From a virus: a stretch of DNA of 46,769 nucleotides. The notes below the pieces were generated by a model that saw nothing but the letters and a program-made list of their open reading frames with translations, made no database searches and was not told where the DNA came from. Numbering within the stretch: the first letter of the stretch is position 1; each line of letters starts with the position of its first letter. The DNA lies in IMG/VR virus record IMGVR_UViG_3300030098_006380, positions 1-46,769 of that record. The stretch is one strand, 5' to 3'. Of this stretch, positions 3,021-42,879 are shown one piece after another. The translations under genes were made by a program, and so were the position numbers.

Positions 3021-3266
3021 ATGAAGATTACTAAATCCAGATTGCAGGAAATCATTGTCGAAGAGCTAACAAAAACCGACAAAGCGGAAATAAAGCGTAT
3101 GATTGCCAGAGAACTTAAGTCTATGGTGGAAGACGAAGTTGCGAAAGCTATCAAATCTAAAGATATTAAAGACGATATCGGTGACATATCGAAAAAGATT
3201 TTGAAGAAGTTGTACAAAGACATGTCGGTGCACCACCCATATATTATTGATAGAATAAAGGTATAA
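3021..3266 (+). CDS. small helical protein with IIxEEL leader, 81 aa
   Basis: The product begins MKITKSRLQEIIVEELTK. This leader recurs at the start of many small proteins in marine phage genomes (general recollection, not checked). The rest is helical and highly charged (IKRMIARELKSMVEDEV), ending in a Lys-rich, Tyr-containing tail. A similar L-x-x-II-x-EE-I block occurs twice inside the protein at 6810-7715. Its form suggests a removable head-targeting or assembly tag; in T4, prohead protease cuts after I/L-x-E. Function is unknown. Confidence 0.7.
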   Translation: MKITKSRLQEIIVEELTKTDKAEIKRMIARELKSMVEDEVAKAIKSKDIKDDIGDISKKILKKLYKDMSVHHPYIIDRIKV

Positions 3267-7718: not shown

Positions 7719-10151
7719 ATGCTAAATGACGAACAAATTCTGTTAAAAACAGCCAATCTATTAGATACTTTGCAAGAAAAGTGCTGGGATGGTTACAAAC
7801 AGGTGGGAATGAAAGATAAAAGTGGCAAAAAAGTGCCAAATTGTGTTCCTGTTGATGAAAAAGTACTCCGAGAAGTCACCGAAGATGAAATGAGGGTGCT
7901 TGAAGACGTGTTGGATGACTTAAATCCAGCAAATTTGCCCTTAAATGACCTTTTTAGTGGCAAAATGCGTGTTGTCATACCATTTCCAACTGTAGATACC
8001 AACTCAGAGCTTGGAAAGTTCTCAGAATTCTTCAGATCTCAAGAATATGAAGTAGATTGGGAGAAAGGTATGGTATATGCCGAGCGTGATCTGCGTACAT
8101 CCGACGATTTTCTTGATACTTTGATGGGCGGACCTCAACCAAAGAAGAAAACTAAGAAGATTCAGATGAAAATCGGCAAGCTTTTCGCTAAAATAGCCGA
8201 TTTGAGCAGAAAAAAGGATGCATTATACCAAAAAGTCTACAAACACATGGCTGATATCAACTATATGTTGCCAGATGGCGGAGGTGTCCGGTCGCCTCAC
8301 CGCGTTACCGGAAAAATGCTTAAAGCAGCACTCGATGAGAAAGAATATGAGAATTTTCAGAGAATTAACACTCAAATTTACTTATATATTGTAAATCCGG
8401 GCGTTGCAGGTCCAGCAGGTTACAATTTAACCGATTTAGCGACTGAATACGGCGAATATTGGAAAAAGAACGCCGGATTCATCAAAAAAGAAATAAATAA
8501 CATCGATAATGACAAATTTTCCATTATTATCACCCGACATCCGATAGATGTGCTTCGAATGAGTGATTTTGACACAATTACCTCGTGCCACTCTCCAGCT
8601 AGTCGCCAAAATGCCTATCAATCGTACTATAAATGCGCTGTAGCCGAGGCTCAGGGCCATGGAGCGGTAGCATACGTGGTTGAGACAGAAGACCTTCTGA
8701 GCGCCACTAACACGGGTAATATTGATAGCGCAGAGCAAGAAATTCAAGAAGGTGAGATATTTGCTGACGATAAGCGTCCATTTACCGGCGATATTGAGCC
8801 AATTTCTCGCACACGCATCCGTCATGTTAGATATTACCGAGGAATAAGCCCTCCAAAGCGCTGGGATGATGGACAAGACGTTGGAATGCCTGAAAAGCGT
8901 GTCTATGGTATGGATATCCCCGGTTTAGTTAACAGAGTTACTGATTGGGCGAGAAATAATCAAGAAGAAGTCATCGCAAATATGCCAAAACAAGATGGAA
9001 TGATTGATCTCAGTAAATTTATGTTGTTTGGCGGCTCATATGAAGATACTTCGGGCAAGGAGGGGCGCCGCCGATTGGTGCGTCAACTAGTTGGTCCCGG
9101 CGTGGAAGTTGAAGGCTCAATGAAACAAAACACCGACACAGAAGACGACTTGGATGCCAATTTAGTTGGCGATATTATCGCACAATATGAAGGTGAATGC
9201 GAAGAAATAATGAATGAGTATAATAATAGGATGGCTCAAACATATTCTGATTATGAAGTTCAAGATGATGGCGGTGAGGGGGCTTATATTGCTCCTTTCG
9301 CAGCGTTTATTGCGAAGTGGCCCGTTGATGAATGGAAAAGGTTGCCCGGCAACCAAGAAGAAGTAGTGTGGAACTCTGTTGATGAAGTGATTGCCATATA
9401 TGGTGATATATTTGTTGATTCTAACAACTATACACCTGTTATTCGTCGTGTGCGTGAAGAAATACACTTAACTATGAAGATTAACTTTGAGCATCCTGAC
9501 ATTTATGGTAACAGTTATATGGCAATGCCAGACGAATACAGAGATGCACTTCAGAATATTGATGTAATAATCGACGACAGAAGAGATCAGTTTGAAGCTG
9601 TTCTAACTGACTACTTTAAACGAGAAGGGCAAATGGAAGGTGGTACATATATGAATCTTGCTATGTCCATTGAAGATGGAGCACTTACCTCCTATGAGTG
9701 GGATCTTGACACTGATGGGGAATACTCCGAATCATATGAATCATCTGCACGGTATACACATTACTACGATCCAGAAGATTTAGGATTGGGAATTGATGTG
9801 CTAAAGCAGATTGTTGATTCTCGCGATTTTAGAATTGAATTGAGAAAACAACTGCTCGAAGCGCCAAGAAAAGAAATAAATACTCAATATTACTTATCTA
9901 TGAATGCAATAACAGTAGACCAGAGCGGAGAGGTCGCATTTACCGCTGTATTCACGATTAACGCTGATGAGCCGGACCTTATGGCTGAGTTGTTTCAAGA
10001 GCTTGTAGAGGGTGAGATGGACGATGAAGACAACCTTAATGTGGTATTTAATAGAGTATTAGCCCAGTTTGTTAATTCTCGCCAGCCCGCATCGATGCAA
10101 ACAAATGAAAACCTTGTAAGAACTTGGAAAGGGTTTTTAAATGGCCAATAA
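7719..10151 (+). CDS. large protein of unknown function, 810 aa
   Basis: The second largest kind of product in the window, starting 3 nt after the previous stop. The N-terminus carries a short Cys block (CWDGYKQVGMKDKSG then VPNCVP, residues about 22-45) of the kind seen at the ends of phage structural or packaged proteins. An acidic helical linker (EVTEDEMRVLEDVLDDL) follows. The central part has DTITSCHSPASRQNAYQSYYKCAVAEA with GAVAYVVE. The C-terminal 350 residues are acidic and mixed α/β. No catalytic motif is clear. Size and neighbours with head-targeting leaders suggest a virion-internal or injected protein; that is inference. Confidence 0.75.
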   Translation: MLNDEQILLKTANLLDTLQEKCWDGYKQVGMKDKSGKKVPNCVPVDEKVLREVTEDEMRVLEDVLDDLNPANLPLNDLFSGKMRVVIPFPTVDTNSELGKFSEFFRSQEYEVDWEKGMVYAERDLRTSDDFLDTLMGGPQPKKKTKKIQMKIGKLFAKIADLSRKKDALYQKVYKHMADINYMLPDGGGVRSPHRVTGKMLKAALDEKEYENFQRINTQIYLYIVNPGVAGPAGYNLTDLATEYGEYWKKNAGFIKKEINNIDNDKFSIIITRHPIDVLRMSDFDTITSCHSPASRQNAYQSYYKCAVAEAQGHGAVAYVVETEDLLSATNTGNIDSAEQEIQEGEIFADDKRPFTGDIEPISRTRIRHVRYYRGISPPKRWDDGQDVGMPEKRVYGMDIPGLVNRVTDWARNNQEEVIANMPKQDGMIDLSKFMLFGGSYEDTSGKEGRRRLVRQLVGPGVEVEGSMKQNTDTEDDLDANLVGDIIAQYEGECEEIMNEYNNRMAQTYSDYEVQDDGGEGAYIAPFAAFIAKWPVDEWKRLPGNQEEVVWNSVDEVIAIYGDIFVDSNNYTPVIRRVREEIHLTMKINFEHPDIYGNSYMAMPDEYRDALQNIDVIIDDRRDQFEAVLTDYFKREGQMEGGTYMNLAMSIEDGALTSYEWDLDTDGEYSESYESSARYTHYYDPEDLGLGIDVLKQIVDSRDFRIELRKQLLEAPRKEINTQYYLSMNAITVDQSGEVAFTAVFTINADEPDLMAELFQELVEGEMDDEDNLNVVFNRVLAQFVNSRQPASMQTNENLVRTWKGFLNGQ

Positions 10152-10392: not shown

Positions 10393-10637
10393 TGTTAAAA
10401 AAGTTTACACAACACCCTGAAGACCAAGGAGAGACATATTTTGAGCATATGTTTAACTCTTGGAAAATTATAATGATTCTCAAAAGATTAGAGCTGAAGT
10501 GTTTCGTACATTCTATTTTTCCTTTTTGTTATACTGACGCGTTGTCTTCCAAAATAGATTGTCTACAGAAAATGGCCAACCGAGGAAAACTTGCCGAAGA
10601 AGACGTAGAGCTATATGAGGTATATGGTGGTGATTGA
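10392..10637 (+). CDS. DUF6356-like small membrane-associated protein
   Basis: The 81-residue product starts with TQHPEDQGETYFEHMF and continues with a hydrophobic segment CFVHSIFPFCYTDAL and SSKIDCLQKM. The order HP-x-x-x-GE-[ST]-Y-x-x-H, a helix, then VH-[AS]-[IV]-FPF is the signature I associate with bacterial DUF6356-type proteins (from memory). The hydrophobic stretch suggests membrane association. Function is unknown in the family. TAATG coupling links it to the gene before, and its end overlaps the start of a tiny membrane gene. Confidence 0.65.
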   Translation: MLKKFTQHPEDQGETYFEHMFNSWKIIMILKRLELKCFVHSIFPFCYTDALSSKIDCLQKMANRGKLAEEDVELYEVYGGD

Positions 10638-10740
10638 ACTATTTATATTGGGTTTTGCCTGCATGAGCTTGGTAGTTGTCGCGACATCCGACATAGAAAA
10701 ACAGGAAAAAACTCATACCGAAGAGGAGCAAACAGAATGA
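10624..10740 (+). CDS. 38-residue membrane peptide
   Basis: ATG 10624 lies inside the end of the upstream gene; the frame stops at TGA 10738-10740, overlapping the next ATG (ATGA). The product is MVVIELFILGFACMSLVVVAT followed by a short acidic/Gln-rich tail (EKQEKTHTEEEQTE), one transmembrane helix with a soluble C-terminus. A Cys in the helix (FAC) could allow lipidation but the lipobox is poor. The nested, coupled arrangement with a secreted protein is reminiscent of two-gene spanin or membrane pairs, without proof. Confidence 0.5.
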   Translation: MVVIELFILGFACMSLVVVATSDIEKQEKTHTEEEQTE

Positions 10741-10982
10741 AATACGCACTATTATTTTTACTTTCTAGTGTTGCGTACGCAGATGATAGCAATGAAGAGC
10801 CCAAAGTAGTATACAAGCAGAAAACCGAAATTGATTTTGATGGAGTGGAAGTCCAAGGAGAACTGGTAAAACCACAAGGATCCTTGCTTTTAGAGCGAAA
10901 ACATGCTAAATTTAATCCTATGATTAAACTGCGTACTGATTTTGACGATTTAATGGAAGATTCGATACAGGAGATAAAGTAA
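10737..10982 (+). CDS. small secreted protein with KPQGS motif
   Basis: An 81-aa product with signal peptide MKYALLFLLSSVAYA (cleavage near A15-D16). The mature part reads VVYKQKTEIDFDGVEVQGE, LVKPQGSLLLERK, FNPMIKLRTDF. I recall similar short secreted proteins with an 'IDF-x-G-x-x-V-x-G-E-L-x-KP-x-G-S' motif in Myxococcota/Bdellovibrionota, some linked with motility machinery; this is unverified. If correct, the phage carries a homologue of a host envelope protein. It is coupled to the membrane peptide before it (ATGA) and lies immediately before the 10983 gene. Confidence 0.7.
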   Translation: MKYALLFLLSSVAYADDSNEEPKVVYKQKTEIDFDGVEVQGELVKPQGSLLLERKHAKFNPMIKLRTDFDDLMEDSIQEIK

Positions 10983-11906
10983 ATGAAACTTTTAATGGAA
11001 AACTGGCGATTATACTGCGAAGAAGATTTTGTAGTTTTGTGTGAAAGTTATGAACAAGGCATTATCACGGAAGAACGTCTTCTGATGCTTTGGGAAGACA
11101 GCGTTGACAGGAAATACCAGCAGTTGTTAAACGAGGGTATTATGGATATTCTTGCTGTCGGATACGAAAAAGGCAAACAACTTGCTGGTAAAGCAAAAGC
11201 AGTATACGATAATGCAGTTTCTAAGGTCAGCAATTTTTATATGGATCTCCTCAATCAAGTTTGGCTACTCACCCAAAAAATAAAGCAAGGGCTCGGTAAG
11301 CTTGCTTCTGTATTAAAAAGTGTTTATAATAAAGTGTCTGCTTTTTGTGAACTTCATCCGATCATATGTAACGCTACCAAGATCTTAATTGTTATGTTTG
11401 CAATCGCCGGCGCGGCGTTATTTTTCAGTTCAAGTCTTCGCGAAGCACTCGCTAGCGCAGTAAAAAACATACCAACGGATGCGCTTACTGGAGATCTAAA
11501 AGTGCAGAGTATGACAACACCGGGAAAAGTAATTAATCTGAATGATGCAGGAATAGATGCCCTGAAGGGTGTTTTGAGTCTAGGTGCGGATCCCAAGGTT
11601 GACTCCCCAGAGTTAAACCAACTTTATGCTGACGCTTATAAATTCCTAGAGCAGGCCCATGCCTCGAAAGAGGTTATTGAGTTGGCGCAAGCAACAGATA
11701 AAGGTGCTAATGTTGTACAGGGTGCTTTCGAAATTTTAAATAAGACTCTCGATGCGGGTGATGCTACCTTTCAGGAGTTTGTTAACTTAGGGAAGAATGC
11801 GGAACTCATAACAGTAAAATCAAGCACCACGGTATCAACATTAACAGCAGAAAATAGTGGGTTTGCAAAATCAGTTATTGAATTTCAATCCGTAGTTTCT
11901 CCGTAA
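10983..11906 (+). CDS. membrane-spanning protein with capsid-targeting-like leader
   Basis: A 307-aa product starting MKLLMENWRLYCEEDF. The leader MKLL-x-ENWR-x-[YF] is shared with the two following proteins and ends in E-E like T4 internal-protein leaders. A second E-rich helical part follows, then helices with coiled-coil character (about 70-120), one strong transmembrane segment (ILIVMFAIAGAALFF, about 134-150) and a soluble Ala/Val-rich helical C-terminal half. A packaged protein that inserts into the host membrane on DNA entry would fit; that is inference. No family is recognised. Confidence 0.75.
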   Translation: MKLLMENWRLYCEEDFVVLCESYEQGIITEERLLMLWEDSVDRKYQQLLNEGIMDILAVGYEKGKQLAGKAKAVYDNAVSKVSNFYMDLLNQVWLLTQKIKQGLGKLASVLKSVYNKVSAFCELHPIICNATKILIVMFAIAGAALFFSSSLREALASAVKNIPTDALTGDLKVQSMTTPGKVINLNDAGIDALKGVLSLGADPKVDSPELNQLYADAYKFLEQAHASKEVIELAQATDKGANVVQGAFEILNKTLDAGDATFQEFVNLGKNAELITVKSSTTVSTLTAENSGFAKSVIEFQSVVSP

Positions 11907-11928
11907 TGCAATAAAAAGAATAATCAAA

Positions 11929-12129
11929 ATGAAACTCCTACTTGAAAATTGGCGCGAGTATTTAAACGAAGCCCATGGGCTATCTCAAAAAGATCTGGAC
12001 TATGTGAGAGACTTCGCAGGCAAGACCGACGACAAAGAATTAAAAAGAATATTAAAGTTTATTATTAAGTCAAATGTTTTAGTCGATAAGACACAAGATG
12101 TAACCAAGATGAAAGACAAAGATAAATGA
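11929..12129 (+). CDS. small protein with capsid-targeting-like leader, 66 aa
   Basis: The product begins MKLLLENWREYLNEAHG, almost the same leader as the flanking genes; the E-A junction after residue 14 matches the cut site of T4 internal proteins (…E|A). The remaining 50 residues are a charged helical domain (LSQKDLDYVRDFAGK ... LKRILKFIIK) rich in Lys and Asp. It resembles a miniature internal head protein. Coupled to the next gene (ATGA at 12126-12129). Confidence 0.7.
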   Translation: MKLLLENWREYLNEAHGLSQKDLDYVRDFAGKTDDKELKRILKFIIKSNVLVDKTQDVTKMKDKDK

Positions 12130-12812
12130 AACTCCTGTTTGAAAATTGGCGGAAGTTTATTGCAGAAGATTATGAGCCTATCACAACCCTTCGCATTTTT
12201 GACTTTGACGAAACAATAGCTCATACCGAATCAGAAACCCGAGTAACAGCGCCGGATGGCTCAACAGCCACTCTACGCAACCAGCAAGAGTTTGAAGAGT
12301 ATATGAACGCTGCAGCAGAAAAAGAAGGTATTGAGGCCTTTGACGCTGTAGATAAACTTATGGAAATGGGGTATCAAATCGATTTAAGTGATTTTTCTAT
12401 TGTCAAGAACCCAACCGAAATAAAAGCAATCACAGATATAATGAAAGAATTCCCCAGAGACTCCAAAACTTTTATTATGACTGCTCGAAGAGGTCAGTCC
12501 TTGGGCCCTATTATGGACTACTTGGAGGAAATAGGAATAGATACCTCTCAGGTTAGACCGATGGCAACACAGGGAGAATCAAAAGGTGACGTTATTGCTA
12601 CAATGATAGGCAATAAAATCCTCCCGAATGGAAAATCCAACATAAACAAAATTGAATATTTTGAAGACTCCACAAAAAATATTCAGGATGTTTTAGAAAA
12701 GGTATGTAGAAATCCTGACATAAAAGATATCAAACCGGACGACTTCGTACTAATTATTAAGCAAGTCATACGAAAAGGTGACTCTTATACGCTTCAAAAC
12801 ATTGAATGTTAA
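12126..12812 (+). CDS. HAD-superfamily hydrolase with capsid-targeting-like leader
   Basis: A 228-aa product. Residues 1-14 are the shared leader (MKLLFENWRKFIAE), very close to the T4 IPIII type leader MKTYQEFIAE. The HAD domain follows directly: motif I FDFDETIAHT (D25 and D27 by count from the start), a cap region, motif II in FIMTARR, and a late acidic motif IEYFEDSTKN. HAD enzymes of this form are phosphatases acting on small molecules or on polynucleotide 3' ends (PNKP-like). The leader suggests it is packaged in the head. ATGA overlap with the gene before. Confidence 0.85.
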   Translation: MKLLFENWRKFIAEDYEPITTLRIFDFDETIAHTESETRVTAPDGSTATLRNQQEFEEYMNAAAEKEGIEAFDAVDKLMEMGYQIDLSDFSIVKNPTEIKAITDIMKEFPRDSKTFIMTARRGQSLGPIMDYLEEIGIDTSQVRPMATQGESKGDVIATMIGNKILPNGKSNINKIEYFEDSTKNIQDVLEKVCRNPDIKDIKPDDFVLIIKQVIRKGDSYTLQNIEC

Positions 12813-12829
12813 AAAGATTACTTTTTTCA

Positions 12830-12838
12830 TGATATAAT
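12830..12838 (+). promoter_or_regulatory. extended -10 promoter
   Basis: TGATATAAT gives a perfect -10 (TATAAT 12833-12838) with the TG extension, in an AT-rich spacer. No good -35 is found at 17 nt. It lies 27 nt before the radical-SAM gene, which has GGAG before its ATG. Confidence 0.6.
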
Positions 12839-12865
12839 ATTTTTTCAAGTTAGGATGGAGAGATT

Positions 12866-14590
12866 ATGAAAGTTTTATTAACATGTACAAGCATCGAAGA
12901 TTCAAGCCGCACGGAAGATTCGCCAGATAGCCATTACCCACTAGGATTGGCTTATTTGCATTCGTACTTAGAAAAACATTCAGATCATCAAGTAGAAACT
13001 CACTTTTTAAATAATGTAGATAATGATACTTGTTTTAAAAAGATAACAGAGGAGATAGAGACTTTTAAACCAGATGTGGTTGGAATATCTGTCATGACCT
13101 TTAGTCGTACAAGCTCATATCGAATGATAGAATATTTAGCTGAAAATCATCCGCATATTAAAATAGTTTTAGGTGGAATGCATCCGACCGTAATGTGGAA
13201 AAACATGCTTAAGAAATATACAGATTGTGTGGTTGTTATCGGAGAAGGTGAACTAACATTTCATGAGTTGTTGGATTATTTTGAAGAAGATAAAGACATT
13301 TCCGAAGTTATGGGAATCGCATACCACAACGGTGAAGAACCGGTCAAAACCGGAGAAAGAGATCTAATCGATAATCTTGACACTCTAGAATTTCCAAAGC
13401 ACGAAATATTCTTATGGGAAGGCAAAAAAATGGCCAATCTGCTTACAAGTCGCGGCTGTCCATTTAAATGTAACTTCTGTGTGCTTGACCACATATCCCT
13501 AAGAAAGGTTAGATTTAGAAGTGCAGAAGATGTTTGTGATGAAATCGAAGAGATTTTAAGAATATGTCCAACTGTCGACACAATCTGGCTACATGATGAT
13601 GCCTTTATGATTAATAAAAAGAGCACAATGGCACTCTGTAGAGAAATTATCAAAAGAGGAATCAAGACCAACTTTACGTGTAGCGCTAGGTTTAGGCCCG
13701 TATCACGGGAGCTTATCCAACTGATGGAAGAGGCTGGGTTCAATCACGTTCTATTTGGACTTGAGTCAGGCGCGCAGAATATCATGGATGATATGAAAAA
13801 GGGAATCACCAAAGACCATATCAGATATGCTACGTCTTTGTTCGCAGAAAGCAACATCAAGACAACAGCCTTCTTGATTGTGGGCCTTCCGGGAGAAACT
13901 CAAGAAACAATCGATGAAACCATAGACTTCGTACAAGAAATGCAGTTCAACAACTATCTTTACTATGATGATATCGGCACGGCGATGATATATCCCGGTG
14001 CCGAGGTGTACACTATTGCAAAATCTAGAAACTTAGAAGTAGAAGGCTATGGATTACTGGATGATGATTATTGGTTGACAGATTTAGAAGTTCCTTATTA
14101 TCTCTGTGAAAATACATTAGAGCAACTCCGAGAATGGAAAGAACAAATTCGTAATGCTATTTCTTTGAACAGGTTCAATGAGCCGGCAAACTTCTTGAAA
14201 CAAAAGAAGATGTTACCTTCATTGATCAAATACAGCTTTAAGTTTGGGATGGTTGGGGTTGTTAACTTACTTCATCAAACATTGCAAAAACATCAACTAG
14301 TTCCTGATCTTATTAAGACCTTCTTTATTGGTAACCCAGAAGACATGTATAGTAAGATTGCCAAAAATATGGAAAAAGATCTGATTGCAGGAATGATGGA
14401 AAAAATGACGATTGAAGAAAAGAAGCAGTTTATTGTCGATTATCAAAGACAAACTAAAGAAGATCAGCTTACTATTGCTAAATGGAAAGAACAACACCAT
14501 CCGGCAGCAGACGAGTATACTGCACTTCATAAACAAAGAGCAAAAACAGAGCCAGAAATGACCAATCTGCTAAATATAGTTAGCAAATAA
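12866..14590 (+). CDS. B12-binding radical SAM enzyme
   Basis: A 574-aa product. Residues 1-150 form a cobalamin-binding-type α/β domain (YPLGLAYLHSYLEKH, VVGISVMTFSR, IVLGGMHPTV). The radical-SAM core follows, with the cluster motif C198-PFK-C202-NF-C205 (CxxxCxxC) and typical later strands (WLHDDAFM, FGLESGAQNIMD, FLIVGLPGET). The class (BchE/ cobalamin-dependent methylases and cyclases) performs radical reactions such as methylation of unactivated carbons. A C-terminal helical region of about 170 residues is unassigned. The enzyme needs a [4Fe-4S] cluster and reductant. The window has a ferredoxin and cluster-assembly genes. Substrate unknown; natural-product, lipid, glycan or nucleotide modification are possible. 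Confidence 0.9.
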   Translation: MKVLLTCTSIEDSSRTEDSPDSHYPLGLAYLHSYLEKHSDHQVETHFLNNVDNDTCFKKITEEIETFKPDVVGISVMTFSRTSSYRMIEYLAENHPHIKIVLGGMHPTVMWKNMLKKYTDCVVVIGEGELTFHELLDYFEEDKDISEVMGIAYHNGEEPVKTGERDLIDNLDTLEFPKHEIFLWEGKKMANLLTSRGCPFKCNFCVLDHISLRKVRFRSAEDVCDEIEEILRICPTVDTIWLHDDAFMINKKSTMALCREIIKRGIKTNFTCSARFRPVSRELIQLMEEAGFNHVLFGLESGAQNIMDDMKKGITKDHIRYATSLFAESNIKTTAFLIVGLPGETQETIDETIDFVQEMQFNNYLYYDDIGTAMIYPGAEVYTIAKSRNLEVEGYGLLDDDYWLTDLEVPYYLCENTLEQLREWKEQIRNAISLNRFNEPANFLKQKKMLPSLIKYSFKFGMVGVVNLLHQTLQKHQLVPDLIKTFFIGNPEDMYSKIAKNMEKDLIAGMMEKMTIEEKKQFIVDYQRQTKEDQLTIAKWKEQHHPAADEYTALHKQRAKTEPEMTNLLNIVSK

Positions 14591-14606
14591 TAGGGGGTAC
14601 TTTGAA

Positions 14607-17384: not shown

Positions 17385-17636
17385 ATGTCATTAAATTCCG
17401 ATTGGCAGGCTTTTCTTAATGAGAGTCTTGATGAAAAGAACATCTTTACCTACATTCAGGGTCTCCAAGAGATAATTTCCAATCTTAAACCCAAGACGAT
17501 GACTGAGAAGCGCAGATTACAGCTTGCAAAAAATCATTTGCGAGAAGTTAAGAAGTTTGCTCGTCGGATGGATAGTGACATAAGCGTTCTTCAAGAAAAG
17601 CTTAATATTTTGGAAGAGTCAAAAGGGGACGAGTAA
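17385..17636 (+). CDS. small helical protein with leader-like N-terminus, 83 aa
   Basis: The start is ATG 17385, which has GAGGA 7 nt upstream; the TTG at 17358 is rejected. The product begins MSLNSDWQAFLNESLDEK, resembling the DW-x-x-[YF]-L-x-E leader of the 10983-12126 genes, then becomes a Lys/Arg-rich helix pair (KRRLQLAKNHLREVKKFARR). It ends with an acidic helix. It is translationally coupled (TAATG) to the large fusion gene that follows, with which I recall it paired in other marine phages. Confidence 0.75.
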   Translation: MSLNSDWQAFLNESLDEKNIFTYIQGLQEIISNLKPKTMTEKRRLQLAKNHLREVKKFARRMDSDISVLQEKLNILEESKGDE

Positions 17637-19612
17637 TGGCGAAAGCTAACACTCATCTCACCCACCTTGAAGAGTTGGTTCTTACTCAAGGTCCAGCTGG
17701 CTATAAAATGGCCAGAGCGTTCCTTCTAGAGCTTTTAAAGACTCTTAAGGGGAATACTGGCTCTAAGATTCAAACGTCCGTTAAATGGGATGGGGCGCCG
17801 GCAATTTTTGCCGGCGTCAATCCTGAAAATGGAAAGTTTTTTGTTGGTACCAAATCAATCTTCAATAAAGTTCCAAAAATTAACTATACAAAAGAAGATA
17901 TTATTAAGAACCACGGTCATGCACCGGGTCTCGTAGACAAGTTAACCAAAGCCTTAGAGTACCTGCCGGCACTGAACATCAAGAATATCCTTCAAGGTGA
18001 CTTCATGTTTGATGACGAGATGATTAGTACCGTTGAGATAGATGGCGAACCTCATTATAAGTTTAAACCTAACACTATTGTTTATGCAGTGCCAGTTGAT
18101 TCAGAGCTGGGAAGGCAAATAGAGCAAGCTAAGTTTGGTATTGTTTTCCACACCACCTATGATAGCTTAGATAGTGGTGCAAGTTTCGGCGCCGATATAT
18201 CAGGCCTTCGGAGAGCGCCGGGGGTTTGGTTTGACGACGCTTTTTTCACAGATGACACAGGCGTTGTAACTTTGACAGAGGATGAAGAAGCCGAGATAGT
18301 TAGATTGGTAAAAGAAGCAGACGCTGTAAATAATGAAATCAACTATGATGATTTACCATTTGCGTTTTTAAATATTTACATAAACAGCGAGATTAAGGCC
18401 GGCAGCTTTCTAGAAGATCCTGCAAAATCTTTTCAAGGCTTCGTCAACTGGTATTCTCAGAGAGCACAAAAGAAGATAAATAATCTTAAAAGTGATAAGG
18501 GAAGGCAAAGGGCCACCCAGAACGCTCAACAAACTTTACAATCTTTCAATGAAAGAAGAGAGGATATTCTCAATATTTTTAAAGTAAGTCGGCTGCTCTT
18601 TGATGCGAAAAACATTTTTATCGAGAAATATAACAACGCAGTTTATAATACTAAGCACTTCGTCGACGATGGTTCTGGGGATTTAGTTGTCAGCAATCCA
18701 GAAGGTTATGTAGCCGTTGATCATAAAGGAAACGGTATTAAGTTTGTAGACAGATTAGAATTTAGCAGGGCTAACTTTGCTGTTGATAAGGGTGATAAAT
18801 TCACTGGTGATATCAACGAACAAGAAGATGAATTTGATATTGGCGATGAGGATGACGATCCAGTAGTCGATGCTGACTATCCCAAGACCGTAGCTGTTGT
18901 TCCGGGAGCATTCAAGCCACCTCACAAGGGGCATCTAGATATGGTGCGAAAATATGCCAACGTTGCAGATGAAGTTATTGTATTGATATCTAAACCAACC
19001 AAAAAAGGAAGATATCTGCCAAATGGGAGAGAGATAACTTCCGATGATTCTCTTAAAATATGGAATGTCTTAACGGCGGGATTATCCAATGTTAAAGTGG
19101 AGATATCTTCCCATGCCTCCCCCATTAATGCCGCATATGAATATGTGGGAGAAGAAGGGCCCCTTAATATTGGTGACAAAGTAATGCTGGGTTGCAGTAC
19201 CAAAGGCGGCGATTGTGGCCGTTGGGCAGGAGCAGAGAAGTATATCAAACAAGGGGTGGAGTTGATTCCAGTTACCGGTGTGGAACCTACTGTGCGTGCT
19301 AGTGGAGAGCCATATAGTGCAACTGCATTTAGAAATGCATTGGGTGGACCTCTCGACAATAGAGCAGAGATAGCTGATTTTGTGGGCGAAGAAAACCTAG
19401 ATGCTATTTTAGATATACTTGGGCTCGCGAACGTTGAGGAGACGTCATCAATGGCAGGAGGCGCAGTAGCGGGGGCATCGATCCCTTTGGGATCTACATC
19501 GGGTAAAGGCCGGAGAAAGGCCAAACAAAATACTATTATCAGACATGAAAATATCGATTTAAGTATCGTGGAGACAGTTTTGGAACTAATTAAAGAAAGA
19601 GGCATAATTTAA
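17636..19612 (+). CDS. ligase-like domain (DUF6267-type) fused to HxGH nucleotidyltransferase
   Basis: A 658-aa two-part protein. Part one (about 1-400) matches a phage family I know as DUF6267. It contains K50-WDG (KxDG, as in motif I of ATP/NAD ligases), ILQGDFMF near 117, a FKPNTIVYAV strand and E356-GYV...IK369-F, like ligase motifs IV and V. The I-to-IV distance of about 300 residues is long for a ligase, so the ligase reading is inference. Part two (about 415-620) is a clear HxGH-class nucleotidyltransferase: GAFKPPH430-KGH433, ending with an S/T-x-x-FR type motif (YSATAFRNAL), as in NMNAT or PPAT. Such a pairing could transfer or seal nucleotides. An acidic linker (about 395-412) joins the parts. 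Confidence 0.8.
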   Translation: MAKANTHLTHLEELVLTQGPAGYKMARAFLLELLKTLKGNTGSKIQTSVKWDGAPAIFAGVNPENGKFFVGTKSIFNKVPKINYTKEDIIKNHGHAPGLVDKLTKALEYLPALNIKNILQGDFMFDDEMISTVEIDGEPHYKFKPNTIVYAVPVDSELGRQIEQAKFGIVFHTTYDSLDSGASFGADISGLRRAPGVWFDDAFFTDDTGVVTLTEDEEAEIVRLVKEADAVNNEINYDDLPFAFLNIYINSEIKAGSFLEDPAKSFQGFVNWYSQRAQKKINNLKSDKGRQRATQNAQQTLQSFNERREDILNIFKVSRLLFDAKNIFIEKYNNAVYNTKHFVDDGSGDLVVSNPEGYVAVDHKGNGIKFVDRLEFSRANFAVDKGDKFTGDINEQEDEFDIGDEDDDPVVDADYPKTVAVVPGAFKPPHKGHLDMVRKYANVADEVIVLISKPTKKGRYLPNGREITSDDSLKIWNVLTAGLSNVKVEISSHASPINAAYEYVGEEGPLNIGDKVMLGCSTKGGDCGRWAGAEKYIKQGVELIPVTGVEPTVRASGEPYSATAFRNALGGPLDNRAEIADFVGEENLDAILDILGLANVEETSSMAGGAVAGASIPLGSTSGKGRRKAKQNTIIRHENIDLSIVETVLELIKERGII

Positions 19613-21858: not shown

Positions 21859-21866
<8 letters not shown>
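21657..21866 (+). CDS. small basic protein, 69 aa
   Basis: TAATG coupling with the thioredoxin lipoprotein. The product begins MWKIYKYNGRYIQGDFISK, then a Lys-rich helix (ESAALKKAKKEINFKF) and a β-strand (EIRIWLDDK), ending in KKTRG. It resembles small phage domains of strand-helix-strand form with an 'A-x-x-x-AK-x-E' helix. Its stop codon overlaps the 5' end of the tmRNA gene by 8 nt. Function unknown. Confidence 0.7.
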
Positions 21867-22195
<329 letters not shown>

Positions 22196-22209: not shown

Positions 22210-22467
22210 ATGGCCGATCCAAAAGACAAATGGGAAGACAACGTTGGTGAGTTTTCCATCATTGCAGGTAAAAAAGTATCATTTTATGTAGACCAAGAAT
22301 GTATCCTTTGTTCGGTATGTTCGGATGCAGCGCCCAACAACTTTCGCATCAGCGATGATGGCGATCATGATATTTGTTTCAAACAGCCCGAGAATGAGCA
22401 AGAGCTTGATCAATGTTATGAAGCGCTAGAAAGCTGTCCGGTCGAAGCTATTGGAGATGATGGGTAA
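22210..22467 (+). CDS. ferredoxin-like single [4Fe-4S] protein
   Basis: An 85-aa acidic protein with C31-IL-C34-SV-C37 (CxxCxxC) and a distant SCPVEAI motif giving the fourth Cys. This is the layout of one-cluster [4Fe-4S] ferredoxins. Two extra Cys (DICF, DQCYE) may be structural or form a disulfide. It carries electrons at low potential. In this phage it could feed the radical-SAM enzyme (12866) or the RfbH sugar dehydratase (39689), whose reaction needs an electron donor. The gene lies 17 nt after the tmRNA. Confidence 0.9.
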   Translation: MADPKDKWEDNVGEFSIIAGKKVSFYVDQECILCSVCSDAAPNNFRISDDGDHDICFKQPENEQELDQCYEALESCPVEAIGDDG

Positions 22468-27855: not shown

Positions 27856-27886
27856 CTATATAGCTTAGGCGGAGATGTACACTACA

Positions 27887-28282
27887 ATGAGTTATTCTGA
27901 AAAAGTAATCGATCACCTAGAGAACCCGCGCAATGTGGGCACTATGGACAAAGACGCGGATGACGTGGGTACGGGACTGGTTGGTGCGCCGGCCTGTGGT
28001 GATGTGATGAGATTACAACTTAAGATTAATGATAATGGAATAATAGAAGATGCAAAGTTTAAAACATTCGGATGTGGTTCGGCCATAGCATCTAGTTCTC
28101 TTATTACCACCATGGTGAAGGGAAAATCTATTGATTTTGCAAAAGATATATCAAACGCAGAAATCGCCAAAGAGTTGTCACTGCCCCCCGTAAAAATACA
28201 TTGCTCTGTATTGGCGGAAGACGCCATCAAAGCGGCCATCCAAGATTGGGAAAACAAACAACAAGAAGTAGAAAATGAATAA
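27887..28282 (+). CDS. iscU: IscU-type iron-sulfur scaffold protein
   Basis: Starting at ATG 27887, the 131-residue product carries the scaffold residues at the same numbers as in bacterial IscU: C37 and D39 (GAPACGDV), C63 (FGCGS) and C106 (KIHC106SVLAEDA). It also has the LPPVK motif at 99-103 that binds the HscA chaperone. An upstream in-frame ATG at 27875 is less likely. IscU assembles [2Fe-2S] clusters with the host desulfurase IscS, which is not encoded in the window. First gene of an iscU-nfu-iscA trio under its own promoter. Confidence 0.96.
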   Translation: MSYSEKVIDHLENPRNVGTMDKDADDVGTGLVGAPACGDVMRLQLKINDNGIIEDAKFKTFGCGSAIASSSLITTMVKGKSIDFAKDISNAEIAKELSLPPVKIHCSVLAEDAIKAAIQDWENKQQEVENE

Positions 28283-28535
28283 ACAAGATATACAAGATTT
28301 TATTGACGAAGACATTAACCCAGCTTTATCTATGCACGGAGGTCATTTGGAGATTGTATCGGTAAGCGATGGTGTCGTGGAGATACAACTCAGCGGCGGA
28401 TGCCAAGGCTGCTCTTCAGCGAGTGATACCATAAAAACCGCTGCCGGCGAACTTATGCAGAATAAGTTTCCCGATATTACACAAATCGTCGACATAACTG
28501 ATCACGCCGCAGGCAAGGACCCCTATCGCACATGA
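28275..28535 (+). CDS. Nfu (NifU C-terminal domain) cluster carrier
   Basis: An 86-aa single-domain Nfu protein: LSMHGGHLEIVSVSDG, EIQLSGGCQGCSSA (the C-x-x-C that binds a [4Fe-4S] cluster between two subunits) and a closing helix. It has no A-type N-domain, unlike NfuA. Nfu proteins pass [4Fe-4S] clusters to client enzymes. Overlaps iscU by 8 nt and the A-type carrier gene by 4 nt (ATGA), so the three are translationally coupled. Confidence 0.95.
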   Translation: MNKQDIQDFIDEDINPALSMHGGHLEIVSVSDGVVEIQLSGGCQGCSSASDTIKTAAGELMQNKFPDITQIVDITDHAAGKDPYRT

Positions 28536-28855
28536 TCACTATGACTGAAAATGCAAAAGACAAAATAAGGCTTTTAATGAACAAAAGACAAACCCCTGAA
28601 TACTATTTGCGTATCGCGCTGCAAGGGGGCGGCTGCTCCGGTTTTAAATATCATTATGATTTGGTAGAATCTCCGGACGAAAAAGATAAAGTATTTGAAT
28701 TTGATGATATCAAAGTATGCATAGATATCAAGTCCTATTTGTTTTTAAGTGGTACAGAGATAGACTACGAAGAAACAATAATGAGGACTGGTATCGTGAT
28801 AAATAATCCAAATGCCACAAGAAGTTGTGGGTGCGGAGAATCCATATCGTTTTAA
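28532..28855 (+). CDS. A-type iron-sulfur carrier (IscA/ErpA family)
   Basis: A 107-aa protein with the three family cysteines: GGGCSGFKYHY and the C-terminal SCGCGESISF. Flanking strands (LRIALQG, KVCIDIKSYLFLSG) fit the HesB-like fold. A-type carriers bind iron or clusters and hand them to target enzymes such as radical-SAM and dehydratase proteins. Whether IscA or ErpA is closer cannot be decided here. Third gene of the trio. AAACAGGAG follows, leading to the next gene. Confidence 0.95.
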   Translation: MITMTENAKDKIRLLMNKRQTPEYYLRIALQGGGCSGFKYHYDLVESPDEKDKVFEFDDIKVCIDIKSYLFLSGTEIDYEETIMRTGIVINNPNATRSCGCGESISF

Positions 28856-30604: not shown

Positions 30605-31894
30605 ATGAAAAAAAAGAAAATACTGGTCTTAGCGGACCACCCCTTATCTCCTTCGGGAGTGGGAACCCAAACAAAATACATGATCGAGGCCCTGTTGAAG
30701 ACGGGCCGTTATAAGTTTATTTGTTTGGGCGGCGCCATGCAGCACAACAACTATGAACCAACGCATGTGGAACCATATAAGGATGACTGGGTCATATATC
30801 CCGTCGACGGCTACGGAAATCATGAGATTATTCGTTCACTGTTGACAAAAGAAAAACCAGATTTGCTGTGGTTTATGACAGATCCTCGCTTCTACGAGTG
30901 GTTGTGGGAAATCGAAAATGAAGTTCGAGCAAATGTTCCCATGCTTTATTATCATGTATGGGATAACTTTCCAGCGCCGCATTTCAACGGAAAATGGTAT
31001 CGCTCAAATGATCATATCGCGTGTATTTCCAAAGTAACTCACCAGATTGTACAAGAGGTGGCTCCAGAGATCCCCTCCACATATGTACCTCATGCTGTTC
31101 CGAGGACAGTTTTTCATCCTTCTAAAACACCGGAACAAAAAACGGCAGTAGCAGAACTTAGAGAACAAATTTTCGCTAATGATGAAACTAGAAAGTTTGC
31201 CAATCCAAAAAAGAAGATATTCTTCTGGAATAGTCGAAACGCACGACGTAAGCAAAGTGGCACGCTTGTATGGTGGTTTAAGGAGTTTTTAGACGAAGTA
31301 GGACACGATAAGGCATGTCTTCTTATGCATACAGAACCAAGAGACCCTCACGGTCAAGATTTGCCTCACATTATTGAACACTTAGGCTTGATTCACGGGC
31401 AGGTTTTGCTATCTTCCGTAAAGGTCGGACCAGAACAATTGGCCATGATGTATAGAGCAGCAGATTATACCATTGGTATTAGTGACGCGGAGGGTTTTGG
31501 ATTGTCTACTCTTGAATCGTTGACGTGCGGTACGCCCATTATTGTCAATATGACTGGCGGCTTACAAGAGCAGGTTACTGACGGCAAAAACTGGTTTGGA
31601 TGGGGAATACAGCCAAGCAGTAAAGCCGTAATTGGTTCTCTTCAGGTACCTTACATTTATGAAGACAGGATCAACCAACAAGATTTCAACAAGGTTATGA
31701 AAAAAGCACTTAATCTAAGCGCACCCAAATATAAAAAGATGAGCGAGATGGGTATAGAGCATATTCGGCAAAATTATAATTTTGAAGATTATGAGAAAAA
31801 CTGGATCTCTCTTATTGATCGGGTTATTGAAGAAGAAGGTGCGTGGGAAAACAGAAAGAACTATAAAACATGGCACTTGTTGGAGGTGGCCTAA
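30605..31894 (+). CDS. GT4-type glycosyltransferase
   Basis: A 429-aa GT-B fold enzyme. The N-domain has ILVLADHPLSPSGVGTQTKYM (the Gly-rich start of GT4 proteins) and LLWFMTDPRFYEWL. The C-domain has IFFWNSRNARRKQSG, DYTIGISDAEGFGLSTLES (the E-x-x-x-x-x-x-x-E nucleotide-sugar motif) and VNMTGGLQEQ. It transfers a sugar from a nucleotide donor, with retention. AGGAATAA precedes the ATG. It is coupled to the next gene (TAATG) and lies at the start of the glycan block. Confidence 0.92.
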   Translation: MKKKKILVLADHPLSPSGVGTQTKYMIEALLKTGRYKFICLGGAMQHNNYEPTHVEPYKDDWVIYPVDGYGNHEIIRSLLTKEKPDLLWFMTDPRFYEWLWEIENEVRANVPMLYYHVWDNFPAPHFNGKWYRSNDHIACISKVTHQIVQEVAPEIPSTYVPHAVPRTVFHPSKTPEQKTAVAELREQIFANDETRKFANPKKKIFFWNSRNARRKQSGTLVWWFKEFLDEVGHDKACLLMHTEPRDPHGQDLPHIIEHLGLIHGQVLLSSVKVGPEQLAMMYRAADYTIGISDAEGFGLSTLESLTCGTPIIVNMTGGLQEQVTDGKNWFGWGIQPSSKAVIGSLQVPYIYEDRINQQDFNKVMKKALNLSAPKYKKMSEMGIEHIRQNYNFEDYEKNWISLIDRVIEEEGAWENRKNYKTWHLLEVA

Positions 31895-33144
31895 TGAAAA
31901 AGAAAGTAATACTAAGAGGCCCTCTCTTAACCAGATCGGGCTATGGAGAACAAGCTCGCTTTGCACTTCGCTCTCTGAGGAGTCGAGAAGACATTTTCGA
32001 TATTTATATTCACCCCCTCCAGTGGGGTCACACTAGTTGGCTAAATGAGGAAAACGATGAAAGAAAATGGATCGACACTAAGATCGAACAAACAATCAGT
32101 TATGTGCAGAACGGAGGAACATTTGATTACTCAGTTCAAGTGACCATTCCTAATGAATGGGAATCAATAGCAGCCAAAAATATTGGATATACAGCCGGTA
32201 TCGAAACAACCCGTATCGCTCACGAATGGATACAGAAGGGTAATGAGATGGACTCGATTATAGTTGTTTCAAATCATTCTAAAGATGTATATGAAAATAC
32301 CAAGTATGATGGAGTAAATCAACAAACCGGAGAACCGGCAGTCCTTGAAAATCTGAGGCCCATCGCCGCTGTTAACTATCCTGTTAAACAATACGATTCT
32401 TTGGAACCAACCAATCTAAATCTTACCACAGAATATAACTTTCTCTGCGTTGCGCAGTTTGGGCCACGAAAAAATATTGAAAATACAATCAAGTGGTTTT
32501 TAGAAGAGTTTAAAAATGATGAGAATGTTGGACTGGTGGTGAAAACTAATGTGGCTAAAAACTGCTTGGTTGATAGAGAGCTTTGTCAAACTAGATTAAG
32601 CGCGCTGAAAAAACAAGTGCCGGATCATAAATGCAAGCTCTATCTTTTACATGGTGACATGTCTGACGAAGAAATGCACGGCCTGTACATGCACCCCAAC
32701 ATCTCAGCCGCCTTATCTCTTACTCATGGCGAGGGTTTTGGATTACCTTTGTTTGAGGCAGCATACATGGGGGTACCCGTAATCGCTACCGGCTGGTCGG
32801 GACAACTAGACTTCCTGAGAGACGAGAAAGGCAAAGATAAGTTTTACAATGTTAGTTTTGATTTAACTCAAGTGCCGGATGGTGTGGTTTGGGAAGGTGT
32901 TCTCATCAAAGATTCAATGTGGGCAGTCCCCCGAGAAGAGTCGGCTAAAATCAATATGAGAGAATGCCTCAAAGACATTCAGGCAGGCAACACTAAATAT
33001 GTTGAAAAACATGTTGCCGATCTGAAAGAGAGGTTTTCTGAAGAAAAAATGTATGCCGCCTTTATCGATGGTATGGGGATAGACATGGAAGAATTTAATG
33101 TTGAAAGTTGGCTGGACGGCTTGGATATCGAAGAGATTGACTAA
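31894..33144 (+). CDS. GT4-type glycosyltransferase
   Basis: The start is ATG 31894 with GGAGG 7 nt upstream and TAATG coupling; the ATG at 31870 is within the previous gene. The 416-aa product has ILRGPLLTRSGYGEQARF, NFLCVAQFGPRKNIENT and THGEGFGLPLFEAAYMGVPVIATGWSG, all typical GT4 motifs. It is probably a paralogue of the 30605 product in this operon. Acceptor unknown. Confidence 0.92.
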   Translation: MKKKVILRGPLLTRSGYGEQARFALRSLRSREDIFDIYIHPLQWGHTSWLNEENDERKWIDTKIEQTISYVQNGGTFDYSVQVTIPNEWESIAAKNIGYTAGIETTRIAHEWIQKGNEMDSIIVVSNHSKDVYENTKYDGVNQQTGEPAVLENLRPIAAVNYPVKQYDSLEPTNLNLTTEYNFLCVAQFGPRKNIENTIKWFLEEFKNDENVGLVVKTNVAKNCLVDRELCQTRLSALKKQVPDHKCKLYLLHGDMSDEEMHGLYMHPNISAALSLTHGEGFGLPLFEAAYMGVPVIATGWSGQLDFLRDEKGKDKFYNVSFDLTQVPDGVVWEGVLIKDSMWAVPREESAKINMRECLKDIQAGNTKYVEKHVADLKERFSEEKMYAAFIDGMGIDMEEFNVESWLDGLDIEEID

Positions 33145-35150
33145 TGAGTCCCCCCTTAAACGATAAACAGACATATGTGTTTATTGCTGACTTTTTTGCT
33201 AGTGATGTGATGGGGGGCGGTGAGTTAAATAACGATGAACTCATATCAATGCTTCGAGATGAGGGCCACAAGGTTCACACGATTCATAGTCATGACGTCA
33301 CTGAAGATTTTATCAAAAAACACGAGCAAGATAGTTTTATAATAGCTAATTTTGTTAACCTAAATAAAGCACTGATACCACAATTTTATGATAAAAAGTA
33401 CATCATATACGAGCATGACCATAAATATATTATTAGCAGAAACCCCGGCGATTACGAAGACTTCAAAGCCCCAAAAGAGCATTTGATAAATGTTGAGTTT
33501 TACAAATGCGCCGCCGCCGTTTTGTGCCAATCTAGATTTCACCGAGAAATTGTTAAGAAAAATCTAGAACTTGGTAACCTGATTAGCTTGGGGGGAAATC
33601 TCTGGTCCACTAAATCCTTAGACTTAATGGAGAAGATGGCATTAAAGACCAAATCTGATGCATGCTCTATTATGAATTCACTGATTCCGCACAAGAACAC
33701 CAGTGACGCGGTCAGCTTTTGTGAGATTACAAAAAAGCCCTATAAGTTAATCTCTAATCCCAATTATGAATCTTTTTTAGATCAACTTAGTGATAATGGT
33801 AGGCTCGTCTTTTTCCCAAAAACACCAGAGACTTTATCAAGAGTGGTTGTTGAAGCCAGAATGATGGGGATGGGTGTTACTGTTAATAAAAGAATAGGAG
33901 CATCCTATGAATGGTGGTATCAAATGAAGGGAAAAGCATTGATTGACATTATGCGTGCTAAAAGAAATGAAATAAAAGAAATAGTAAAAATGTCATTTAA
34001 TACAACTTCATTCGATGATGACGAAAAAAGCAGTAATTTGATGCTTTCTTATCCAAGAAGTGGTAGCACCTTTGTTAGGTATATCATAGAATATTTTACA
34101 AAACGACCAACTCTAGGGCCAAGTGAGGACGGTGTTGACCTCCCGGTTATTGGAAACTTCGGTACGGCGCCGCCCGTAGTTTTTAAGCAACATGCCCAAG
34201 ATTCACATAACAAAGCTATAGCTCAGAACCTTCTAGACGGACGTAGTCCGTTAATTTTTTTGATAAGGGATCCACTAGAAGTTCTTCCTCGACACACTTC
34301 CCGCAGCGAAGCCGAAAGCATAATGCACTCTGATGATTTCAGCGACATTCCTGATACTGTATCCTACTATTTTGAACACCTCCAAATGTATACAGAATAT
34401 GAAGGTAAAAAACAAATCTTTTATTACGAAGATCTGGTGAAGTATCCTGCTGAGTTTATTAAAAAAATGTGTGATTTTTTGGAGGTAGATCAAGATGGAA
34501 ATATCCAAAAAGATTTTATAGAAAACTATGAGTATCATTCTAATAAAAGTCGCTCATTCTACAATGAATACCAGAGTTCCGATGCACTCGCATCTCTTCA
34601 GATGAGCATCCAGCGTGGCTCAACACCAGAGGAGCAAAAGCGAGAGACGACATTTCTGGCAGTTAAGGATATTGTGGATGGATTCAATTCCGGACTCCAC
34701 ATTCCTGATGGAGACGAGTCTAAAAAGATTAAAGCAGAAGATCTCCAACATCTAAAAGTATATGACTGCGTAAGGGAGGTGATAACCGACGATCGAGAAG
34801 AGACCCACTCCGCCGAAGAAGCACACGCAGCATATGGTCAAGAATTTACTTGGCAGTTGACGCGCGTTCGTCTTCAACAACAAGTAGAAGATGGTTATAT
34901 AGCAGTTCCCACTCTCTGTGTTGAAGTAAATCATGGAAATGCTTTTCTTAAAAAACAAAATCCCAAACTTCTCTCACTATTTCTAGAACTCGAAACCAAT
35001 ATTACTGTGAATGGAACTCGTTCCGATGGAAAGACGGTATCGAAATATAAATCAGAATATTCAGAGGCTCAAATACAGACATATTGGGAAAATTTTAAAA
35101 CTTTATGTAGTGGAGACAGTTGGAAGCTTTGCGAGAGGTACATGAAATGA
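33144..35150 (+). CDS. glycosyltransferase-sulfotransferase fusion
   Basis: A 668-aa protein. Residues about 5-270 resemble a GT-B type half with a Gly-rich start (ASDVMGGGELNNDEL), YIIYEHDHKY, and FFPKTPETLSRVVVEARMMG. Residues about 295-470 are a sulfotransferase domain: YPR305-SGST-FVR (PAPS 5'-phosphosulfate loop) and FLIR375-DPLEVLPRHTS (3'-phosphate motif), with YYEDL as the later strand. The last 150 residues are unassigned. It would add a sugar and sulfate, or simply sulfate, to a glycan. It needs PAPS from the host. The fusion is unusual for a phage. Confidence 0.85.
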   Translation: MSPPLNDKQTYVFIADFFASDVMGGGELNNDELISMLRDEGHKVHTIHSHDVTEDFIKKHEQDSFIIANFVNLNKALIPQFYDKKYIIYEHDHKYIISRNPGDYEDFKAPKEHLINVEFYKCAAAVLCQSRFHREIVKKNLELGNLISLGGNLWSTKSLDLMEKMALKTKSDACSIMNSLIPHKNTSDAVSFCEITKKPYKLISNPNYESFLDQLSDNGRLVFFPKTPETLSRVVVEARMMGMGVTVNKRIGASYEWWYQMKGKALIDIMRAKRNEIKEIVKMSFNTTSFDDDEKSSNLMLSYPRSGSTFVRYIIEYFTKRPTLGPSEDGVDLPVIGNFGTAPPVVFKQHAQDSHNKAIAQNLLDGRSPLIFLIRDPLEVLPRHTSRSEAESIMHSDDFSDIPDTVSYYFEHLQMYTEYEGKKQIFYYEDLVKYPAEFIKKMCDFLEVDQDGNIQKDFIENYEYHSNKSRSFYNEYQSSDALASLQMSIQRGSTPEEQKRETTFLAVKDIVDGFNSGLHIPDGDESKKIKAEDLQHLKVYDCVREVITDDREETHSAEEAHAAYGQEFTWQLTRVRLQQQVEDGYIAVPTLCVEVNHGNAFLKKQNPKLLSLFLELETNITVNGTRSDGKTVSKYKSEYSEAQIQTYWENFKTLCSGDSWKLCERYMK

Positions 35151-36097
35151 AAGCATATATACCAAGATATTTAGAATACGCCGGCCGATGGATTTATGAC
35201 GGATACAGGAGTGCATGGCAACACTTAGGGTTTGAGGTTAACCAAGTCATTCCTGAACCTCAGCCGGAACTCATAATGATGCAAATACCGTACGGCCCGT
35301 GGCTGAACGAAGATTACATAATGATGGCAGTCGATGATTGCATCAACGTACACCCCGAGTATTTTTTGGAAGCGGCACATAATAGTCATAAAACTTTTAT
35401 ATATGTGCAACCTCATACATTTCCAAGCCCATGGGGAAGTCATCCCAACTTTATCTCTAGGGTGCCTGATGGGATCATAACAGAGTTGAAGAAACTTTCC
35501 AATGTTCATTTTTGGGCTTTTTCGGATGCTGTTAACGTTGAGGGGTATTATGAAAAATGGGGTAAAGTAAACTGTGTGCCACTGGCCTTTGATTCCATAG
35601 GTTATCAAGCAGTGGATGTTCCTCAGTACAAAAAGTTTGATGTAAGCTTTGTTGGCGGCTGGGCCAACAATGGCTTTAATGAGAAAAAACAAATAATTAT
35701 AAAAACATTTAGCGCATTTCAAGACGCGGGGTTTAAATGTGGATTTTTTGTAAATAAGAATCTAACACACGAGCAAGAGTGTGGCCTACTGGCAAACAGT
35801 AAAATAACTTTAAACATACACGATGCATACCAAAGAATTTTAGGATATGACACCAACGAAAGAACGTTTAAGTCTTTGGGGCTAAATGGCGCGATGGTAG
35901 GCGATTCAATCACCCAACTAAGCCGACTGTTTCCTGATATAAAAACATCCTCAGAACCCAAAGAGATGGTTAGGTTGGTTAAGGAGCTGTTATCACTCTC
36001 CGAAGCAGAGCTAAATCAAATAAAGGAAAAAAATAAACAAGACATTCTGGACAATCACTGTTATACTAATAGGGTGAGGCAACTTCTAGAGTTATGA
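35147..36097 (+). CDS. glycosyltransferase-like protein (GT-B C-domain)
   Basis: ATG 35147 overlaps the previous stop (ATGA); a TTG at 35120 is rejected. The 316-aa product has YAGRWIYDGYRSAWQHLGFEV, FVYVQPHTF-type strands, VSFVGGWANNGFNEKKQI and NSKITLNIHDAYQRI ... RTFKSLGLNGAMVGDS, the layout of CgeB-like glycosyltransferases (Glyco_trans_1-like, spore-protein type). Sugar and acceptor are unknown. Related in layout to the 37969 gene. Confidence 0.8.
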   Translation: MKAYIPRYLEYAGRWIYDGYRSAWQHLGFEVNQVIPEPQPELIMMQIPYGPWLNEDYIMMAVDDCINVHPEYFLEAAHNSHKTFIYVQPHTFPSPWGSHPNFISRVPDGIITELKKLSNVHFWAFSDAVNVEGYYEKWGKVNCVPLAFDSIGYQAVDVPQYKKFDVSFVGGWANNGFNEKKQIIIKTFSAFQDAGFKCGFFVNKNLTHEQECGLLANSKITLNIHDAYQRILGYDTNERTFKSLGLNGAMVGDSITQLSRLFPDIKTSSEPKEMVRLVKELLSLSEAELNQIKEKNKQDILDNHCYTNRVRQLLEL

Positions 36098-37960: not shown

Positions 37961-37968
37961 GGCATTAA

Positions 37969-42878: not shown

Positions 42879-42879
42879 T

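Follow-up and report, generated by a model that had tools for sequence, protein, structure and literature searches.

A short N-terminal leader common to unrelated phage proteins, probably a capsid-targeting tag of T4-like phages

The window and its leader-bearing genes

The window analyzed here is the whole of a 46.8-kb virus record, a fragment without a head module. A domain search identified the 658-aa protein encoded at 17636 as a fusion of DUF6267 and a cytidylyltransferase, and its matches were to cyanomyoviruses and to Pelagibacter phage HTVC008M, which points to a T4-like phage as the source of the window. The features discussed below are as follows:

3021-3266, + strand: 81-aa protein with a second class of leader, MKITKSRLQEIIVEELTK; missed by the first-pass annotation
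10104-10148, + strand: C-terminal end of an 810-aa protein (7719-10151), NENLVRTWKGFLNGQ, with a W-x-x-F-L core lacking the final Glu; also missed at first
10393-14606, no strand: variable slot for candidate cargo genes, with conserved flanks (left, 7719 and 10141; right, 14607 onward)
10983-11906, + strand: tagged membrane protein, 307 aa, all-helical by prediction; leader MKLLMENWRLYCEE at 10983-11024
11929-12129, + strand: tagged 66-aa protein; leader MKLLLENWREYLNE at 11929-11970
12126-12812, + strand: tagged protein, predicted HAD-like phosphatase, 228 aa; leader MKLLFENWRKFIAE at 12126-12167
17385-17636, + strand: 83-aa protein with a core-only leader, MSLNSDWQAFLNES, of the form W-x-x-[FY]-L-(x)-N-E

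The adjacent ORFs 10983, 11929 and 12126, all on the + strand, had been described in the first-pass annotation as sharing a leader and diverging after about residue 14. This was confirmed: the leaders have the common form M-K-L-L-x-E-N-W-R-x-[YF]-x-x-E, any two of them are identical at 9-10 of their 14 residues, nothing is in common past residue 14, and the bodies fall into separate sequence clusters. No other N-terminal pair of this kind exists among the 70 ORFs (≥60 aa) of the window, and the same 70 ORFs gave no comparable pair at residues 20-33, at residues 40-53 or at the C-terminus. Searches of the 66-aa protein against Pfam and PHROG returned no match.

The leaders of 11929 (YLNE) and 12126 (FIAE) end in L/I-x-E, and that of 10983 (YCEE) does not. 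The first [LI]-x-E sites of this membrane protein are L19-x-E21, I28-x-E30 and L49-x-E51; its structure prediction left the leader uncertain and was silent on the leader's binding partner. The weaker leader that had been proposed at 17385 is real, as the relatives of the protein retain its core in the variants WKDFLNE, WKNFLNE, WRNFLLNE and WQQYLINE.

Several other features of the window were recorded. A tmRNA gene with the tag peptide ANNNLHFEQRLAA, unusual on a phage contig, lies at 21859-22193. Three small genes in a row at 27875-28855 appear by eye to be IscU-, NfuA- and IscA-like (iron-sulphur cluster assembly), and a ferredoxin-like gene at 22210 accompanies this set. By eye, the long block at 30605-43869 looks rich in glycosyltransferase- and nucleotide-sugar-epimerase-like genes, many of which have relatives in other leader-bearing phages.

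Occurrence and conservation of the leader

Viral contigs were scanned with a DNA pattern for M-K-x-x-x-E-N-W-R that fixed residues 1, 2 and 6-8 and, in part, 4 and 9, leaving residues 3, 5 and 10-14 free; at least 120 stretches matched. Among the matches listed, there were at least 149 distinct tagged proteins (≥50 aa) in at least 88 clusters, as defined by BLASTP after residue 20. At the free positions L3, M/L/F5, K/E10, Y/F11, L/I12 and E14 prevail; past residue 14 there is an acidic bias and otherwise no conserved residue. A looser collection, built with a position matrix, comprised at least 211 non-redundant proteins in 106 clusters. Some clusters (e.g., several of HAD proteins) are probably remotely related, so 106 should be read as a ceiling for independent families.

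The domains that follow the leader include DUF192, M23 peptidase, amidase, guanylate kinase, DEDD exonuclease, NUDIX, GNAT, tRNA-ligase-type (2H) phosphodiesterase, DUF3293 and phosphatase, among others. The expectation that unrelated domains would follow an ENWR leader was therefore borne out, over 88 to 106 clusters at least, and the leader is supported as an N-terminal tag independent of protein family. The remote kinship of some clusters would also suit descent of all tagged proteins from one old family whose bodies diverged beyond recognition, but we regard this as extremely improbable: guanylate kinase, DEDD exonuclease, GNAT, amidase and DUF192 bodies are unrelated, and HAD relatives in other lineages bear different N-terminal extensions. 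Three tagged proteins (L095:1743-2468, L016:4765-5892 and L110:9894-10448) appear by eye to be ADP-ribosyltransferase-like, with a YHxT motif; T4 Alt, an injected protein, belongs to this enzyme class. A Pfam search returned no match for the three.

Long contigs carry 4-15 tagged genes each, often in runs. The numbers of tag-initiated genes in six of them are 13-15 (G041), 11 (G003), 10 (G036), 9 (G032), 6-7 (G006) and 4-5 (G033), the true start being uncertain for four strong "internal" matches (two in G041, one each in G033 and G006) because they lie within 25 residues of a rule-chosen ORF start. About a dozen of the genes in G041 are contained within 8.3 kb. The leader was absent from the cultured phages HTVC008M, immuto and Mel-JY01, and a tblastn search of a phage collection with the bare leader returned no match, and hence no cultured carrier there. 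No paper containing the leader sequences was found in the limited literature collection searched.

A stricter pattern, applied to one genome per species for 84,980 prokaryote species, gave a single match, compared with 74 in the 120 viral loci. This match lies on an 'Opitutia' MAG contig that bears several leader genes and so resembles a phage fragment. Such restriction to phage DNA would be unexplained if the leader were a generic stability or oligomerisation helix with no connection to the head, as would the invariant W8 and E14 and the L/I-x-E site; the helical prediction and the acidic bias after residue 14 agree with a helix of this kind, an explanation that we nevertheless consider very unlikely.

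We also compared the leaders at the nucleotide level, with one member per cluster. Conservation is found at the bases that determine the amino acids, whereas third positions and the upstream 40 nt vary almost freely, which indicates selection on the peptide rather than on the DNA. The alternative, that the stretch works at the level of DNA or RNA, as a recombination seed or a translation-start element, and that the peptide has no role, draws on an exact 26-nt start, ATGAAACTCCTACTTGAAAATTGGCG, that is found repeatedly in unrelated genes, both in the same phage and in different ones. This recurrence suggests that leaders are sometimes also copied as DNA, which is compatible with a peptide function. 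With wobble and upstream bases nearly free, and with conservation that reaches codon 14 and ends at a protease-like site, a role as nucleic acid only seems highly improbable. Leader genes could not be tied to head genes through T4-like late promoters (TATAAATA), the counts of which were mostly no higher than those of a shifted control word.

Likeness to T4 cleavage sites and the head genes

In the T4 record, IPII and IPIII start with MKTYQEFIAE, and gp23 is cleaved after residue 65, at FGSFLTE. Relative to the cleaved Glu, the T4 sites have aromatic residues at -6 and -3 and I/L at -2. W8, Y/F11, L/I12 and E14 of the leader fall in this same register, the aromatic-x-x-aromatic-[LI]-x-E core matching YQEFIAE and FGSFLTE position by position; the first-pass annotation had pointed out the likeness of the HAD leader end, FIAE, to the T4 CTS. 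Mutational data assign residues 4 and 7 of the T4 CTS to targeting and residues 8 and 10 to processing, and T4 gp21 cleaves after L/I-x-E (PMC9026906).

Among the 106 cluster representatives, W8 is present in all, W being part of the search pattern, and residue 11, left free in the search, is Y, F, W or H in 102. The leader ends in [LI]-x-E in 79/106 (84/106 when LIVM is allowed), and [LI]-x-E occurs within residues 10-25 in 90% of the representatives, against 10-16% in control stretches. The 22 representatives without [LIVM]-x-E at residues 12-14 include 15 in which [LI]-x-E lies elsewhere in the 10-25 stretch; the controls gave 2-4. Judged by these counts, the protease-like site is under a constraint of its own that survives shifts in spacing.

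It should be noted that the leader is not the T4 leader proper (MKTYQEF or MKTFKEF) and that the likeness is confined to the aromatic-x-x-aromatic-L/I-x-E core, so the leader is better said to work like the T4 CTS than to be a member of it. Residue 15 of the in-register leaders is E (27), G (16), S (9), D (7) or A (7); as this residue is mostly E or G and is A in the T4 sites read, the cleavage specificity may differ. Two cultured marine phages encode N-termini nearer to the T4 leader than to ENWR: MKNFKNHIAEE in Melnitz (L449:4982-5377) and MKSFKDFQNVNE in HTVC008M (113582-113995).

Packaging in the head would require a gp21-type prohead protease, as the first-pass annotation pointed out. A gp21 homolog (Peptidase_S77) was present in 19 of the 46 records searched. 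These include every leader record in which T4-type gp23 amounts to more than a contig-end scrap (14/14; one is G032, the window's closest long contig) and four in which gp23 was not found. The head module is probably missing from long fragments without gp21 (such as G001 and G009), because gp23 is absent there too. For G041, the PHROGs names include major head protein and head maturation protease; its gp21 relative is encoded at 17536-18144 and a scaffold-like protein at 13357-14391. The presence of gp21 is necessary but not specific evidence, as gp21 accompanies gp23 in T4-type phages anyway. Genes bearing the leader or its core adjoin gp21 in G018, G029 and G032, and in the major capsid proteins of the carriers L-[RK]-E lies in an N-terminal stretch close to the T4 cut position.

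The HAD protein offers a view of the leader within one family. The FDFDET, TAR and [DE]DS motifs are kept in 12 relatives. In the structural model (mean pLDDT 73), the leader is a separate low-confidence helix and the fold begins at residue 21; this model, too, is silent on a binding partner. A fold search gave weak matches only, in which certain HAD effector domains (TM 0.35-0.4) were interspersed with methyltransferases, and the protein had no match in the phage collection. Its relatives on viral contigs comprise 32 with the ENWR leader and 47 without, many of the latter bearing other extensions, some core-only (MLKKWKQFLSE, MKNFNNIWRNYLTE) and others unrelated. The GKVYSN... extension of HAD relatives in another phage group was considered as a shared tag and rejected, as it occurs at most once per contig searched. 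In the 24 residues before the catalytic domain, [LIVMF]-x-E is found in 64/64 examined members of the window's HAD clade, those with unrelated extensions included, and 5/16 of a sister clade. This contrast serves as an illustration and not as an independent test, because the absence of such junctions was what set the sister clade apart, by eye, and because the proteins are related to one another. Similarly, gp21 was found in six records (all >100 kb) of the first clade and in none of the sister clade, a contrast confounded by the shortness of the sister contigs.

An amphipathic N-terminal helix, separate from the fold in the HAD model, could dock anywhere, and the tagged set includes peptidoglycan hydrolases and membrane proteins, which would suit a role at the tail or envelope. 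The leader might thus be an uncleaved docking tag for a target other than the prohead core, such as the tail, the membrane of the host or some enzyme complex that operates in the infected cell. We find this unlikely, since L/I-x-E is kept despite spacing shifts, which would be purposeless in an uncleaved helix, since the register is that of the T4 CTS, and since tagged genes adjoin gp21 in some contigs. Our favored reading, which we hold to be likely, is that the leader is a capsid-targeting tag for injected proteins, probably cleaved by gp21, with a mode of action like that of the T4 CTS, a different sequence and a far wider cargo. The first-pass inference that a set of enzymes and a membrane protein is packaged in the head and delivered with the DNA is thereby supported in part.

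The leader would then be the capsid-targeting propeptide of a large, mainly marine group of phages with a T4-type head. Cargo would be made with the N-terminal amphipathic helix, which would attach through W8 and Y/F11 to the core or scaffold of the prohead before shell closure. During prohead maturation, the gp21-type protease would cleave after E14, at L/I-x-E, freeing the cargo inside the head. DNA would be packaged around the cargo, which would enter the next host with the DNA and could act before any phage gene is expressed.

Additional tags, the variable slot and biological meaning

A second leader class, represented in the window at 3021, has the form MKITKxxLxxIIKEEL. The distinct proteins that open with it number 199 and fall into 169 clusters; most are small, and another L-x-E often follows near residue 22. 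The motif occurs in the same phages as the ENWR leader. A looser version of the motif was found at N-termini 3-6 times per carrier contig, a few weak matches included, against 0.1-0.3 expected. Genes of this class adjoin gp21 in G018, G040 and G041, and the cultured Flavobacterium phage immuto (host Flavobacterium sp. LMO8) has a related form, at 81525, 102294, 102880, 113188 and 123355, once within the head cluster. This motif may be a second targeting tag, an inference weaker than that for the ENWR leader.

In the 810-aa family, the last residues of nearly all relatives are W-[KR]-x-[FY]-[LI]. The motif is N-terminal, however, in a tagged protein homologous to part of the 810-aa protein (L121:8901-9560). 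The C-terminal core may be a form of the tag that escapes cleavage, a function that we infer.

About a dozen contigs share the flanks of the window's variable slot, with the 810-aa protein and, mostly, an 83-aa protein on the left and the genes from 14607 onward on the right; flank identity is mostly 50-85%, and lower in G032. Between these flanks, related contigs have one to six different leader genes, which vary in number and kind. A B12-binding radical-SAM-like protein without a leader (12866-14590) also lies in the slot, with only a weak match in relatives. The T-even internal proteins Ip1-3, which have the leader alone in common, block different type IV restriction enzymes (PMC12373910), and by analogy the slot resembles the loci encoding them. 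As the tag is short and separable, we propose that unrelated genes gain it and turn over in hotspots, as in those loci.

Compared with the T4 CTS of IPI-IPIII and Alt, the leader is likewise a short N-terminal sequence common to otherwise unrelated proteins, with aromatics at -6 and -3 and I/L at -2 from the Glu and a gp21-type protease in the same phages, and the genes of T-even internal proteins likewise occupy variable loci (PMC12373910). It differs in sequence (MKLLxENWRxYLxE versus MKTYQEFIAE), in length (14 versus 10 residues) and in the residue after the Glu, often E or G. It also heads 4-15 genes per phage, many enzyme-like, instead of a few. The gp23 site FGSFLTE has the same pattern; however, gp23 is a shell protein with a propeptide of approximately 65 residues, whereas the leader heads many non-shell proteins. 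In the giant phages SPN3US and phiKZ, diverse head-packaged proteins are cut by a gp21 relative after a short Glu-ending motif (PMC5694885, PMC9026906); their propeptides are mostly longer than 100 residues, and the phiKZ motif is S/A-x-E.

We give roughly even chances to the broader proposal that marine T4-like phages address a dozen or more unrelated proteins to the head, for injection, by at least two short swappable tags (MKLLxENWRxYLxE and MKITKxxLxxIIKEEL) and perhaps by a C-terminal form that is not cleaved. If true, the injected set of a phage could be listed from its sequence, and this set would comprise a hundred or more protein families, mostly functionally uncharacterized. Injected proteins are known for few phages, normally through proteomics phage by phage, and the tag makes a sequence search possible. 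It singles out approximately 100 candidate clusters, most of them functionally uncharacterized, whose members would act at the very start of infection. As the T-even internal proteins of known function block restriction enzymes, the variable slots are places to seek early counter-defence proteins, and the tag offers a direct test of how prohead cores outside T4 recognize their cargo.
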